NCBI RefSeq assembly: GCF_003003285.1
Contig: NZ_PVTP01000003.1
Location: 310,001-374,000, forward strand
DNA from: Yoonia maritima
GTDB lineage: Bacteria; Pseudomonadota; Alphaproteobacteria; Rhodobacterales; Rhodobacteraceae
Direction of reading: 5' to 3'
DNA length: 64,000 bases
The notes beneath the pieces were generated by a model. It was not told the DNA's origin, ran no database searches, and saw only the letters and a program-made list of their open reading frames with translations. A program made the translations under genes and the position numbers. Of this stretch, positions 48,955 to 53,453 are shown one piece after another; position 1 is the first letter of the stretch, and each line of letters starts with the position of its first letter.

Positions 48955-49938
48955 TTACCTGCCCCCCTTTTTGTTCTTTTTCATTGGCATGCCAAGGTCA
49001 GCAGGATCAATATTCTGCGCCGGTGCATCAGTACGGATTGCAACACGCAATTTGGCGGAACGCGAACGCGGGTTTTCCGCCAATTCTTCGGCGTCCGGAC
49101 CGATTGCTTTGCGCTTTTCGATACGGAACGCCGGAGTAATTTGTTCGACCTCGGGCGCATAACGGTTTGCATTTGCCGTGTTACCAGAACGCGCCTGCAA
49201 GAAACGTTTAACCATACGATCTTCGACGGAATGGAATGTCACGACAGCCAACTTACCACCGGGCTTCAGCGCGCGTTCAGCGGCCATCAACCCTTCGGCC
49301 AATTCGCCATATTCATTGTTCACCGCAATGCGAAGCGCCTGAAAGGTACGTGTCGCCGGGTGTGACTGATTTGGCTTTGCACGCGGCAAACAGCTTTCGA
49401 CCACCTTCGCCAATTGCAAAGTCGTCGTCAGCGGACGCGCAGCAACAATCGCACGCGCGATACGCCGGGATGCACGCTCTTCACCATACAGAAAGATAAT
49501 ATTAGCAAGTTCAGATTCGTCAGCAGTGTTCACAAGATCAGCAGCCGAAGGCCCGTCCTGCGACATCCGCATATCCAGCGGCCCGTCACGCATGAACGAA
49601 AACCCGCGCTCTGCCAGATCAAGCTGCATAGAGCTGACGCCAAGGTCCAGCACCACGCCATCCAAATCGGATGCATATTCATCTAGCTTTGAAAACGTAC
49701 CAAGCTGCATTTTGATCCGGTCACCATAGGCATCGGCCCACTCTGCGGCCATTTCAAATGCCAGTGGATCACGGTCTACAGCGATGACCTGATCAGCGCC
49801 GGCCGCCAACAATTCTCGGGTATAACCGCCAGCACCAAAGGTCCCATCAAGCCAGACACCAGAAACAGGAGAGACCGCTGCAATCAGCGGTCTAATCAGA
49901 ACAGGAATATGAGGTTTATCGTCGGAGGCAGCTGACAT
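48955..49938 (-). CDS. rsmH: 16S rRNA (cytosine1402-N4)-methyltransferase
   Basis: 327 residues. SAM site [19 protein letters not shown], then [43 protein letters not shown] and [21 protein letters not shown], all standard RsmH/MraW. The last 40 residues carry a basic, lysine-rich end (KKNKKGGR). It methylates C1402 in the ribosomal P site. Second gene of the dcw cluster, 9 nt after mraZ, and it abuts ftsL. Confidence 0.97.
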
Positions 49939-49947
49939 CGTAATCCC

Positions 49948-50442
49948 CTAATCGTCCAAAAGGCTTAGCGGATCAAAGTCCTCGCCCTGCTCATCCAGCC
50001 AGCCAGTCAAATCATCCACGATCTCTTCGGCGTATGTTTCGGCTTTCCAAATTTCAAAGTGATCGCCAAGGCCACTGAACTTAAGTTCACCATCAGTCAA
50101 GCCAAGCTTTTGACGCTGCTTGATCGGCATAACCGTGCGACCATCCTTGTCGACGTCCAATTTGATGGACTGACCGATAATCAAACGCGACAGTTTCTTC
50201 TTGTTCGCGGAACCCCGCGGCATCGCATTGATCTGATCGACCAAAGCGGTGAATTCGTTAACAGTATAACCGTGAAGTTCGTTTTTCAGGTGGTCACCGT
50301 ACAAAAGGTACATACGCGGGAACAGACCTGTCGTCCATTCGGGGTCACCAGCTTCAAGCACACGACGAAAATCAGCCGGGATCGACATGCGCCCCTTGCT
50401 GTCCACCTTTTGGGTGTGTTCGCCTGTGAAACTTAGAACCAC
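49948..50442 (-). CDS. mraZ: Transcriptional regulator MraZ
   Basis: 164 residues with GTG start at 50442, preceded by GAGGG; the family begins with a short VLSFTGEHTQKVDSKGRMSIPADFR, so the longer frame upstream is rejected. Two AbrB-like repeats carry DSKGRMSIP and DKDGRTVMPIKQR, the paired DNA-binding elements. MraZ regulates the dcw operon, including its own gene, by binding TGGGN repeats in E. coli. An insert between the repeats (RGSANKKKLSRL) and an acidic C-terminus are seen. It leads the operon. Confidence 0.95.
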   Translation of the reverse strand: MVLSFTGEHTQKVDSKGRMSIPADFRRVLEAGDPEWTTGLFPRMYLLYGDHLKNELHGYTVNEFTALVDQINAMPRGSANKKKLSRLIIGQSIKLDVDKDGRTVMPIKQRQKLGLTDGELKFSGLGDHFEIWKAETYAEEIVDDLTGWLDEQGEDFDPLSLLDD

Positions 50443-50747
50443 TGTCCCTCGGCCCTTTACCTTGCACTTACGCCGCAACTTGCGGCCCTGAATGTAGAAA
50501 CGGCGAATTGCGCTGCTGCCACTGCACAATCCGCCGCCTTGCCCCACGTTGGGGGAAAAGTCCGACTGCGCGTGCCACCTGGGGGGATGTCTGCTCGCTC
50601 ACGCGCCGGATCTGTTTTGAGTAAAGACGAAGCCTGTATGAAACCTGCTTTTGCCGGTTGGGGTTCTTTTGCGCCCCGTTTGAAGTCGTGTTCGCCGTTA
50701 CCGTGCAACTGTTTTGACAGCAGAACGCGATGCGATCAACAGTTTTC

Positions 50748-51152: not shown

Positions 51153-52226
51153 CTAAGCCATCCCGCCGTCAATGAACCGCCGGGCAAGCTGGCGGTAAGC
51201 GTCGGCCATTGGTCCATCCCCTGCTGCGATTGGCGTACCAGCGTCACCTGCCAGCCGCGTATCAAGATCAATCGGCAAAGCCCCCAGCAAAGGCACACCC
51301 ATCCTGTCCGCCTCTGCCGCAACACCGCCGTGACCAAAGATATGGGACTCATGACCGCAATTCGGGCAATGGAACGTCGACATGTTTTCGATCAGACCAA
51401 GGACAGGCGTCTTTAGCGTGTTGAACATATCAATCGCCTTTCGCGCATCAATGAGTGCGACATCTTGCGGGGTGCTCACCACGACTGCGCCAGTCAGATT
51501 AGTCTTTTGACATAATGTGAGCTGCACATCACCCGTACCGGGCGGCAGATCGACGATAAGAACGTCTAATTCACCCCACTCAACCTGCCCCAGCATTTGC
51601 TGAAGTGCACCCATCAACATAGGGCCACGCCACACGACCGCCTTGTCCGGGTCCACCATTAAACCAATCGACATCATAGTGACGCCATGTGCTTGTAGCG
51701 GAATAATGGTTTTACCATCTGGGCTGGCTGGGCGCTTATTGACGCCCATCATGCGCGGCTGACTGGGACCATATATATCAGCATCCAACAAACCCACACG
51801 ACGCCCCTCGCGCGCCAATGCCACGGCAAGGTTAGAAGATACTGTCGACTTACCAACGCCACCCTTACCGGACCCGATCGCCAAAATGCGGTCTACGCCA
51901 GCGACAGGTGCCGGACCGGCCTGCGGTGTCGGGTGACGACCTACCTTCAACGATGGGGCTTCTGGCGCCTTGGGTGCCGGGCCATGTGCTGTAAGAACGA
52001 CAGACACGGAATCGACACCGTCCATACCCCGCACAAGTTCTTCAGCTGCGACACGGATCGCGTCCATCTTGGCGGCCTCTGCCGGATCTGCGGCCTCAAT
52101 AACAAAACGGACGGCACCAGATTCGATGGTCAACGCCCGGATCATATCGCGCGAAACCAGATTCTCACCGCCCGGCAACGTCAGCCGCGCAAGTTCGCTT
52201 AGAATTTCATCACGCGTAATCGCCAT
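51153..52226 (-). CDS. apbC: Mrp/NBP35-family Fe-S cluster carrier ATPase
   Basis: 357 residues. An N-terminal DUF59-like domain ([23 protein letters not shown]) is followed by a linker and the P-loop ATPase: [29 protein letters not shown] and [19 protein letters not shown] ([10 protein letters not shown]) is the cluster-binding CxxC. It assembles or transfers [4Fe-4S] clusters to apo-proteins. ATG 52226 with AAGGGG is chosen; the upstream extension is not family-like. Single gene with its own terminator. Confidence 0.95.
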
Positions 52227-52279
52227 AGCAGGCCCCTTGTTTATAAAGCGTCTATTTCGTGACCAACATCTGGCACGTT

Positions 52280-52370
52280 TTATGCAAACCACAAGCCCTA
52301 GGGCCGATCTGCATAAGAATACTACAGATTGATGACGTTAGGTCAGCGATGCTTATGCATTTTCTGCATA
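52280..52370. promoter_or_regulatory. Cluster of TTATGCA half-sites upstream of the DUF1127 gene
   Basis: TTATGCA occurs at 52280-52286 and 52353-52359, and its complement TGCATAA or TGCATAG at 52310-52316 and 52365-52371. The last two form an inverted repeat TATGCA(5 nt)TGCATA. They lie in the 253-bp gap before the DUF1127 gene and suggest a regulator binding region; the protein is unknown. Confidence 0.4.
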
Positions 52371-52418
52371 GCAGCAATGACCAATCGTCCGTTGTGCAGC
52401 TGCAGCATAATCCTTCAT

Positions 52419-52425
52419 AAGGAGG
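52419..52425 (+). promoter_or_regulatory. Shine-Dalgarno-like AAGGAGG without a start codon
   Basis: AAGGAGG is an almost ideal ribosome site, but no ATG, GTG or TTG follows at a usable distance and the DUF1127 ATG is 55 nt further. TCCTT just upstream can pair with it over a 3-nt loop. It is complementary to the CCUCCU loops made 300 nt downstream. Confidence 0.45.
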
Positions 52426-52479
52426 ACAACCAAAGCGACACGGGTCGCAACGACGTAATGAGATAGACGAGTAAGTAAC

Positions 52480-52695
52480 ATGACATACCAAACACAAACA
52501 CAATTCGCTGGCGCTTCTTTTGCAGCACGCTTCTCCGCTTTCCGCGCTGAGATCGCTCAGAAACTGGCAAACCGCAAAGTGTACACAACAACAGTTAACG
52601 AGCTGCAGGCTCTTAGCAACCGCGAACTGGCTGATCTTGGCCTGGGTCGTTCAGAAATCAAACGTATCGCTCTAGAAGCTGCATACGGCAACTAA
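52480..52695 (+). CDS. ccaF1: DUF1127 small RNA-binding protein (CcaF1-like)
   Basis: 71 residues. The C-terminal ELQALSNRELADLGLGRSEIKRIALEAAY is the DUF1127 motif, with conserved L-S-x-R-x-L-x-D-(I/L)-G and Arg. The N-terminal part is a basic helix. In Rhodobacter sphaeroides the homologue CcaF1 (RSP_6037) is co-transcribed with the CcsR sRNAs, binds RNA and assists their maturation under heat-shock sigma control. The same order here, with the hairpin array starting 12 nt after the stop, supports that assignment. The SD before ATG 52480 is weak (GAGTAAG). Confidence 0.88.
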   Translation: MTYQTQTQFAGASFAARFSAFRAEIAQKLANRKVYTTTVNELQALSNRELADLGLGRSEIKRIALEAAYGN

Positions 52696-52706
52696 TAACG
52701 AGATCG

Positions 52707-52738
52707 GAACTGTCGCTTCCTCCCTGAAAAGACAGTTC
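52707..52738 (+). ncRNA. Cuckoo hairpin 1
   Basis: Stem GAACTGTC/GACAGTTC (8 bp). The loop carries CTTCCTCCC, one mismatch from the consensus. First hairpin after the DUF1127 stop. Confidence 0.85.
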
Positions 52739-52744
52739 TGAAAC

Positions 52745-52779
52745 GACCCAACGCTCCTCCTCCTCCCTGAGCTTGGGTC
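52745..52779 (+). ncRNA. Cuckoo hairpin 2
   Basis: Stem GACCCAA/TTGGGTC extended by GCTC/GAGC across a bulged C. The 12-nt loop holds an extended CTCCTCCTCCCT with an exact CCTCCTCCC. Confidence 0.87.
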
Positions 52780-52788
52780 ACACATAAG

Positions 52789-52822
52789 GTGGCGACATTC
52801 ACCTCCTCCCGGATGTCGCCAC
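52789..52822 (+). ncRNA. Cuckoo hairpin 3
   Basis: Perfect stem GTGGCGACAT/ATGTCGCCAC (10 bp) closing a loop with an exact CCTCCTCCC. Confidence 0.88.
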
Positions 52823-52834
52823 TTTACACCAGTT

Positions 52835-52866
52835 TCGGAACCGCCACCTCCTCCCGGCGGAACCGA
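52835..52866 (+). ncRNA. Cuckoo hairpin 4
   Basis: CCGCC/GGCGG next to the loop and TCGG/CCGA outside, separated by a symmetric AA/AA internal loop. The apical loop is ACCTCCTCCC. Confidence 0.85.
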
Positions 52867-52876
52867 TCATACCGCA

Positions 52877-52906
52877 GGCCGCGCTCACCTCCTCCCGAGC
52901 AACGCC
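52877..52906 (+). ncRNA. Cuckoo hairpin 5
   Basis: GCTC/GAGC closes an exact ACCTCCTCCC loop. The outer part has three mismatches before GGC/GCC pairs, so this is the weakest hairpin of the set. Confidence 0.78.
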
Positions 52907-52914
52907 CGCGAGGA

Positions 52915-52952
52915 AGCGCCTCGCTCTTCTCCTCCCAGAGCAGGCAGGCGCT
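52915..52952 (+). ncRNA. Cuckoo hairpin 6
   Basis: Outer stem AGCGCCT/AGGCGCT and inner stem GCTCT/AGAGC, with a small asymmetric internal loop. The apical loop TCTCCTCCC differs from the consensus at one base. Confidence 0.85.
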
Positions 52953-52962
52953 GATCATAGAG

Positions 52963-53002
52963 ACGGTCATGCCCACCTCCTCCCGGGCATGACCGTTTTT
53001 TT
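52963..53002 (+). terminator. Cuckoo hairpin 7 and transcript terminator
   Basis: Perfect 12-bp stem ACGGTCATGCCC/GGGCATGACCGT closing an exact ACCTCCTCCC loop, followed by a seven-T run (52996-53002). It combines an anti-SD loop with a rho-independent terminator. Confidence 0.92.
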
Positions 53003-53060
53003 ATGTACAAACGGTATTCCGCAATTGCAGCGCAACGGTTTTGCCCGATAGACATGCAAC

Positions 53061-53453
53061 ATGAGCATGCCGCCAAGATTTCCAATCACTGCAGATCAAA
53101 TCACCCTGGTCGTGAAACAGTTCTATACCGCCGTCCGCACGAACCCAGAGATTGGCCCAATCTTTGCGAAACACGTCACCGATTGGCCCAGCCACGAATC
53201 AAAAATCGCGGGCTTTTGGCGCAATGCGATTCTGTTTGAACGGAGCTATGACGGCAATCCGATGCAGGCACATATGCGTGCAGGAAATGTGCGCCCCGAA
53301 CATTTTGATATTTGGTTGGGACTGTTCGATACGATTCTGGCCAAAAATCTACCCACCGACACAGCTGCATCATGGTCGACACTAGCCCACCGTATCGGCC
53401 GCGGGTTGCGTTACGGCGTTGAGCCAACCGAAGGACCGCCCACCCTGACCTAG
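53061..53453 (+). CDS. Group III truncated haemoglobin
   Basis: 130 residues. FYTAVRTNPEIGPIFAKHVTDWPSHESKIAGFWRNAILFERSYDGNPM is the group III pattern, with Tyr at B10-like FY. The haem proximal His is most likely in the following helix (His71 or His81, HMRAGNVRPEHFDIW), which needs alignment to settle. It may bind oxygen, nitric oxide or sulfide. It starts 58 nt after the sRNA terminator and overlaps the convergent Lrp gene by 4 bp. Confidence 0.88.
   Translation: MSMPPRFPITADQITLVVKQFYTAVRTNPEIGPIFAKHVTDWPSHESKIAGFWRNAILFERSYDGNPMQAHMRAGNVRPEHFDIWLGLFDTILAKNLPTDTAASWSTLAHRIGRGLRYGVEPTEGPPTLT

Follow-up and report, generated by a model that had tools for sequence, protein, structure and literature searches.

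A conserved CcaF1-CcsR/cuckoo-type locus in Yoonia maritima: a DUF1127 gene followed by seven anti-Shine-Dalgarno hairpins and preceded by predicted LsrB/VtlR-type boxes

The locus described here, a gene for a 71-aa DUF1127 protein (52480-52695, forward strand) followed by seven hairpins (52706-53000), is a real and well-conserved member of the known CcaF1-CcsR/cuckoo/alpha-r14 kind. Positions are those of the window, i.e. the whole 64,000-nt stretch of Yoonia maritima DNA that was analysed. The gene order, the hairpins with their co-varying stems and conserved loops, the terminator and the conserved promoter words can all be read directly from the sequences; by analogy with related systems, we infer how the locus is transcribed and processed, what its protein does, and what its targets and regulators are. 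Taken together, the findings make it probable that this is one stress-responsive operon of the CcaF1-CcsR/cuckoo kind, with an RpoH-like core promoter and two LsrB/VtlR-type boxes, the transcript of which is processed to anti-Shine-Dalgarno sRNAs. The new part is the conserved promoter boxes, which suggest how relatives may switch the operon on.

The ORF at 52480-52695 encodes a CcaF1-like protein, as assessed by a Pfam search (PF06568, E 1.7e-11). The first loop motif lies 20 nt 3' of its stop codon. The neighbour on the opposite strand is a Mrp/ApbC-type ATPase gene; downstream lies a gene resembling bacterial globins, and the neighbourhood also includes an AsnC/Lrp-type regulator. About 2 kb from the locus, visual inspection identified ORFs resembling rsmH and mraZ, the start of a dcw cluster (48955-50547, reverse strand); the UpsM sRNA of Rhodobacter sphaeroides is made from the 5' UTR of the dcw cluster (PMC8625941). 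Elsewhere in the window there is a SAM_alpha riboswitch (RF00521; 22457-22534, reverse strand; 46.4 bits, cut-off 36). The genome has six DUF1127 matches above the Pfam cut-off, and an Rfam scan of the five other DUF1127 loci returned no match. A second DUF1127 match adjoins, and is divergent from, a LysR-type match (C2:296655-296738, reverse strand, and C2:296955-297128, forward strand).

The seven hairpins have different stems and CCUCCUCCC-type loops, five of which are exact CCTCCTCCC and two of which (hairpins 1 and 6) match at 8/9 positions. The loop motifs start at 52716 (one mismatch), 52759, 52802, 52847, 52888, 52928 (one mismatch), and 52976, i.e. at successive spacings of 43, 43, 45, 41, 40, and 48 nt. 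All hairpins are on the forward strand. Hairpin 1 (52706-52739) has the loop CTTCCTCCC, which is partly paired in the predicted fold. Hairpins 2 (52745-52779), 3 (52785-52826), 4 (52835-52866), and 5 (52873-52910) have CCTCCTCCC, hairpin 6 (52915-52952) has TCTCCTCCC, and hairpin 7 (52959-53000), again with CCTCCTCCC, doubles as an intrinsic terminator. The predicted fold of the 307-nt stretch consists of seven separate hairpins (-135.2 kcal/mol, z -11 versus shuffled sequence). Within 310 nt of the stop codon, seven motif-carrying hairpins were observed, compared with a mean of 0.10 and a maximum of 1 in 300 dinucleotide shuffles. Pfam, motif, fold and shuffles thus bear out what an earlier, sequence-only reading had proposed, a DUF1127 gene with seven tandem anti-Shine-Dalgarno hairpins on distinct stems. 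Its proposal that the last hairpin combines a cuckoo hairpin with a terminator also held, for hairpin 7 runs into T7, the only one of the seven to be followed by a T run; a consensus terminator scan, which admits loops of 3-8 only, did not return hairpin 7.

What is unusual is the clustering of the motif. With at most one mismatch, it occurs 12 times in the 64-kb window against 8.3 expected, and 10 of 100 shuffles reach 12, which is no clear excess. Exact CCTCCTCCC words number seven on both strands of the 3.68-Mb genome, and five of these are within the array. A search of the class for sets of three exact motifs spaced 33-63 nt apart returned only this genome of 385, with a pattern strict enough to miss another genome of the same genus (G294). 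In the window scan, the Rfam model ar14 (RF02344) matched 52699-52826 with 61.3 bits (cut-off 58.8), whereas the genome-wide search gave two matches at the locus that fall just below the cut-off (58.0 and 56.8); the model covers hairpins 1-3 and, below the cut-off, 5-7. It matched one of six large arrays of the family (L128, L181, L220, L217, L137, and L143) and one of two further genus loci.

To the conservation of the array, the genus Yoonia contributed 56 genomes, 48 of which had a DUF1127 match with an E-value of at most 1e-15; all 48, including the window's own, were used, and the eight without such a match were left out of the array counts. All 48 loci have the seven hairpin positions. 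In 40 of them, every loop has at most one mismatch and its stem is formed, and in the remaining eight one or two of the loops, standing at the same positions, have more changes. The stop codon of two loci (L075 and L087) was misplaced by the script, and their register was shifted by hand. The loops of hairpins 1-7 are exact in 29, 41, 45, 46, 44, 7, and 45 of the 48 loci, respectively, one miss at hairpin 7 (L047) being an artefact of the extraction window. Hairpin 6 displays a nearly fixed one-base variant, TCTCCTCCC (52928-52936 in the window), found at 40 of the 48 loci.

While the loops are constant across the genus, the stems vary, and the sequence-only reading had made compensatory stem changes in relatives one of its touchstones. 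Such changes are present. RNAalifold analysis of the alignment of 48 arrays yielded 63 pairs, 36 of which show kept double changes. For a controlled count we used a named structure, also of 63 pairs, in which five pairs were added in hairpin 2 and five outer ones omitted. Double changes affect 39 of these 63 pairs and 223 cells, compared with 55.6 cells in shuffles, none of 500 shuffles being as high; 96.2% of cells are paired, compared with 28-41% when the partners are slid. Hairpin 2 aligns poorly, with 81.5% of cells paired. In the alignment-free arm-swap test, each left arm was scored against its own right arm and against those of orthologues. Across distinct flank pairs, its own arm gave the better pairing in 43/45 (hairpin 1), 44/44 (hairpin 2), 43/44 (hairpin 3), 20/35 (hairpin 4), 38/40 (hairpin 5), 29/31 (hairpin 6), and 41/42 (hairpin 7). 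For six hairpins this agrees with the count on the alignment, and the covariation signal of hairpin 4 is weak. This is strong evidence, from comparison of the aligned loci, that the array stems are kept by selection. Two other accounts of the array were rejected. It is not coding sequence, because its spacing differs by 1-2 nt among relatives and no frame is kept, nor does it consist of mobile or REP-like repeats, because the stems differ within the array and a left arm finds a better partner in the right arms of its orthologues than in those of the other hairpins.

We then have the number of hairpins across Rhodobacteraceae, for which 295 genomes, about one per genus, were sampled. Exact motifs occur as one or more close pairs in 218 of them, and a similar DUF1127 gene is present in 277. 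From these 277 genomes, 129 loci were taken nearly in rank order (L210 was chosen for its array, outside that order), and hairpins were counted at the 128 that were readable. The query alignment was made of the window's protein and array-linked proteins, and the lack of zero counts thus means little. The counter is heuristic, with at most two loop mismatches, rules for stem energy and spacing, and a spacing of at least 30 nt, and for four loci that run into contig ends (L145, L164, L182, and L214) the counts are minima. Hairpins per locus range from 1 to 26, with a median of 8 and quartiles of 5 and 10, and 75 of the 128 loci have seven or more. The window's array is therefore of middling size and ordinary for the family, just under the median, and not the expanded array that the sequence-only reading had seen in it. 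Among 27 named records, hand-picked from 80, Roseivivax sediminis has the lowest count (0) and Mesobaculum littorinae the highest (16), and both Yoonia records have seven.

An odd number had also been said to sit badly with simple two-hairpin units. For the family this has some merit, since even counts exceed odd ones (88 versus 40 of the 128 loci), which fits such units. Spacing was classified at the 115 loci that have at least four hairpins: 63 alternate between short and long spacing (defined as spacings of 58 nt or more making up at least 30%), 32 show a mixed pattern and 20 share the uniform spacing of the window; the typical spacings of the alternating loci, ∼39 and 66 nt, are as in two-hairpin units. 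In Yoonia, however, seven hairpins are kept across the genus with uniform spacing, so that an array of seven is stable here, not the remnant of a broken one. The largest array (L128 in genome G165, 288-1197) has 26 hairpins, spacings that repeat in threes and a 140-bp unit present 6.5 times with 97% matches. This suggests a cuckoo array that has recently expanded in tandem, and the repeat unit indicates that arrays can grow by tandem duplication.

How might such an operon work? A stress or nutrient signal would activate the promoter, with its RpoH-like core and two LsrB/VtlR-type boxes, giving a single transcript that comprises the DUF1127 mRNA and the seven hairpins. The unpaired linkers would be cut, probably by RNase E aided by the DUF1127 protein, by analogy with R. 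sphaeroides, in which the same gene order yields CcsR1-4 via RNase E processing with CcaF1 (PMC10253847, PMC8625941, PMC7866481). The products would be short sRNAs, each with one hairpin or a small number of them. Their CCUCCUCCC loops would pair with purine-rich Shine-Dalgarno sequences and block translation of many mRNAs, by analogy with NfeR1, in which the anti-Shine-Dalgarno loops are described as redundant; they silence ntrB in the region of its start, and silencing is lost when all three are mutated (PMC10746234). The seven loops would be largely interchangeable, so that hairpin number may set the dose. Counting against this model are the weak covariation of hairpin 4, the poor alignment of hairpin 2, the atypical -10 of the window, the published view of LsrB as unique to Rhizobiales (PMC11975290) and the uniform spacing of the array, in which no long linker marks processing sites. 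In addition, the part of the DUF1127 protein in RNA processing is not certain, because other DUF1127 proteins act by protein binding, those of Agrobacterium binding PhoR in a role that CcaF1 can complement (PMC12501420). Outside the array and its mirror strand, the genome contains only two exact full-complement GGGAGGAGG sites (C7:68594 and C10:68236), and in the window there is one 7-nt site before a start codon (6265).

Two other roles for the hairpins have to be weighed against mRNA pairing in trans. The array might mainly be a sponge, the hairpins of which bind the DUF1127 protein or Hfq and set the level of free protein, with mRNA pairing secondary. That the R. sphaeroides hairpins are made together with the gene of an RNA-binding protein, that CcaF1 affects CcsR levels (PMC10253847, PMC8307010), and that the number of hairpins varies from 1 to 26 in the family loci counted would all suit a sponge. 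It should, however, conserve a stem or shape, whereas the conserved part is a nine-base loop complementary to the Shine-Dalgarno sequence, and the loss of silencing upon loop mutation in the related NfeR1 (PMC10746234) speaks for pairing as well, so that we consider a sponge unlikely. It is more improbable still that the hairpins act in cis only, by stabilising the DUF1127 mRNA or terminating its transcription at the 3' end. They do lie close to the gene, all within 310 nt of the stop codon in the window and with the first loop at a median of 22 nt 3' of the stop codon in the family, and the last one is a terminator. However, one terminator hairpin would be enough, the T run follows the last hairpin only, all seven retain the loop word, and CcsRs of R. 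sphaeroides target flhR mRNA (PMC8307010). Across the family, a run of at least four T occurs within 45 nt past the last loop at 96 of 128 loci. We also rejected an AAGGAGG word (52419-52425) as a cis partner of the loops; it overlaps the putative transcription start and, among the 19 rows listed, is found only in the three nearest (L043-L045).

The block upstream of the DUF1127 gene is conserved through the genus. Numbering follows the RpoHI/RpoHII promoters of R. sphaeroides, with TTG at -36 to -34 (PMC3441632). A predicted RpoH-like core promoter (52392-52420, forward strand) consists of TTG at 52392-52394 and a -10-like CCTTCATAA at 52412-52420, which would place the start near 52428. Ahead of it is a TGCA-N6-GCAT palindrome (52356-52369, ∼-72 to -59 from that start), a predicted LsrB/VtlR-type site, and a second one (52395-52408) overlaps the -35 region, in the same place at 40 of 48 genus and 76 of 128 family loci. 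TGCA-N6-GCAT is described as the LsrB box in the NfeR1 promoter of S. meliloti, within the -72 to -57 stretch (PMC10746234). Upstream stretches of 420 nt, measured from the 3' part of the gene, contain the word at 46 of 48 genus and 110 of 128 family loci (the other 18 family loci lack it). Among stretches of the same size taken downstream of the arrays it occurs in 1 of 126, and among shuffled upstream sequences in 1 of 128. A box 35-38 nt before TTG, which is its position in NfeR1, is found at 43 genus and 78 family loci. Over the whole window the word shows no excess (8 versus 5.7 expected). In the genome, the extended promoter block was found with at most one mismatch only at this locus, and with three mismatches in two other places.

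The core is also widespread, a TTGTGC element being present at 118 of 128 family loci, but it is less typical in the window. Besides TTG at -36 to -34, the R. sphaeroides promoters have a T at -9, which RpoHI needs (PMC3441632). That T is found at 104 of the 118 family loci with TTGTGC and is absent in the window, where the -10 CCTTCATAA is shifted and weaker than the usual family form, and RpoH dependence is therefore less sure for the window than for the family. A scan of 52200-53100 for sigma-70 promoters found none. As judged by these promoter words, the anti-Shine-Dalgarno sRNA operon is probably under RpoH-like control, and perhaps under LsrB-type control as well.

As a candidate for the protein that would bind the boxes, a LysR-type regulator of the genome stands out. 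In Rhizobiales, lsrB is in an operon with trxB (PMC11975290; PMC7486931). A trxB search of the class covered 115 genomes, 104 with a match, and among the best 30 of these 104 loci 19 have a LysR-like neighbour. All 19 neighbours share the same best match, C3:163332, in a comparison set of 30 of the genome's 32 LysR loci. Over the first 62 residues, C3:163332 is 61-87% identical to the trxB-linked proteins (82-87% in 10 of 18), and over the remainder 26-41%; 18 of the 19 proteins were aligned, and the ranges leave out the distant L344 among them (40% and 20%). Four of the genome's own LysR paralogues are only 32-47% identical in the first part. The high identity of the DNA-binding domain makes a shared DNA word likely, and C3:163332 is a likely candidate for an LsrB/VtlR orthologue. 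The genome's trxB has no adjoining LysR gene and lies apart from C3:163332, its flanks being Lrp-type and sulfate-adenylyltransferase-like ORFs by visual inspection. Near C3:163332, just downstream of this likely orthologue, there is an Rfam match to SorX (RF02784, L353:2695-2778, 56.8 bits, cut-off 46.6). In Agrobacterium, AbcR sRNAs adjoin vtlR (PMC7486931), and SorX may, by analogy of position, be their counterpart.

Whether the boxes serve this regulator or another dyad-binding one is a close matter, and the latter is a serious possibility, although we would not call it probable. TGCA-N6-GCAT is a short palindrome, and its binding by LsrB/VtlR is predicted. The word of Brucella VtlR, CAATGCAGCCATGCA (PMC12595884), matches the window at only 12 of 15 positions by visual inspection, and 19 places in the genome match it better, with at most two mismatches, the window's not among them. 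A 2025 paper also calls LsrB unique to Rhizobiales, with a tree of three LsrB and nine OxyR, R. sphaeroides included (PMC11975290), while VtlR has been called conserved in the class Alphaproteobacteria (PMC7486931). On the other side, the box fits the LsrB box of NfeR1 both in word and in position (∼-72 to -59 here, -72 to -57 there; PMC10746234), and the genome does have a LysR protein with a DNA-binding domain 82-87% identical to those of 10 of 18 trxB-linked LysR proteins of the class. In our literature search, LsrB or VtlR was not found together with CcsR1; the founding papers on cuckoo RNA, CcsR and CcaF1 were outside that search, and we claim no priority. In the matching text of PMC12501420, LsrB is mentioned along with CcaF1, in a reference title only, and LsrB and "cuckoo RNA" are mentioned together in PMC10746234 and PMC7143759, both on rhizobia.

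Returning to an LsrB/VtlR-type regulator, we tentatively put forward a wider idea, to which we give somewhat less than an even chance, that the DUF1127-cuckoo operons of Rhodobacteraceae and the NfeR1/alpha-r14 sRNAs of rhizobia are one ancient regulon. An LsrB/VtlR-type regulator would activate anti-Shine-Dalgarno hairpins in both through a TGCA-N6-GCAT at ∼-72, contrary to the view that LsrB is restricted to Rhizobiales. In Rhodobacteraceae, an RpoH core would have been added, and the hairpins would have become a countable array, 1-26 in number and growing by tandem duplication, through which a general brake on translation is dosed. The family comparison thus offers a testable regulator for the DUF1127-cuckoo operons. 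If an LsrB-type protein drives them, a single switch would serve the anti-Shine-Dalgarno sRNAs of rhizobia and Rhodobacteraceae alike, and arrays that naturally range from 1 to 26 hairpins would then be a means of asking whether the strength of translational repression is set by how many loops there are. Of most interest for further work are the conserved LsrB-type boxes and this hairpin series.

Among known systems, the locus most resembles the CcaF1-CcsR1-4 operon of R. sphaeroides (RSP_6037, "CIN1"), as the sequence-only reading had recognised and as its DUF1127 gene and CcsR/cuckoo-type hairpins support. Both have a 71-aa DUF1127 protein, CcsR/cuckoo hairpins directly downstream and an end terminator. 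The promoter is of the RpoHI/RpoHII kind there (PMC10253847), and a TTG-type core is conserved in the Rhodobacteraceae loci here. The two differ in that R. sphaeroides has four CcsR RNAs, whereas the window has seven evenly spaced hairpins and a weak -10. Since the R. sphaeroides RNA RS0680a has two stem-loops (PMC3927594), four CcsR RNAs would amount to an array of about eight hairpins. Predicted LsrB-type boxes are present here, and in the text consulted on the R. sphaeroides operon we found no mention of them. The NfeR1/alpha-r14 sRNAs of Sinorhizobium (RF02344; SmelA075 and SmelA099) are alike in that they comprise three or four hairpins that share this loop while their stems differ (PMC3927594, PMC10746234), and in that a TGCA-N6-GCAT box precedes the putative start by the same distance. 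However, NfeR1 is a free-standing, Hfq-independent sRNA gene with a sigma-70 core (PMC10746234), whereas here the hairpins would form the 3' end of a DUF1127 mRNA. Finally, the VtlR system of Brucella and Agrobacterium also links an LsrB/VtlR-type regulator to DUF1127 genes and to AbcR sRNAs with anti-Shine-Dalgarno motifs (PMC12595884, PMC7486931, PMC7143759), but as separate units, whereas in Yoonia gene and hairpins apparently share one transcript.
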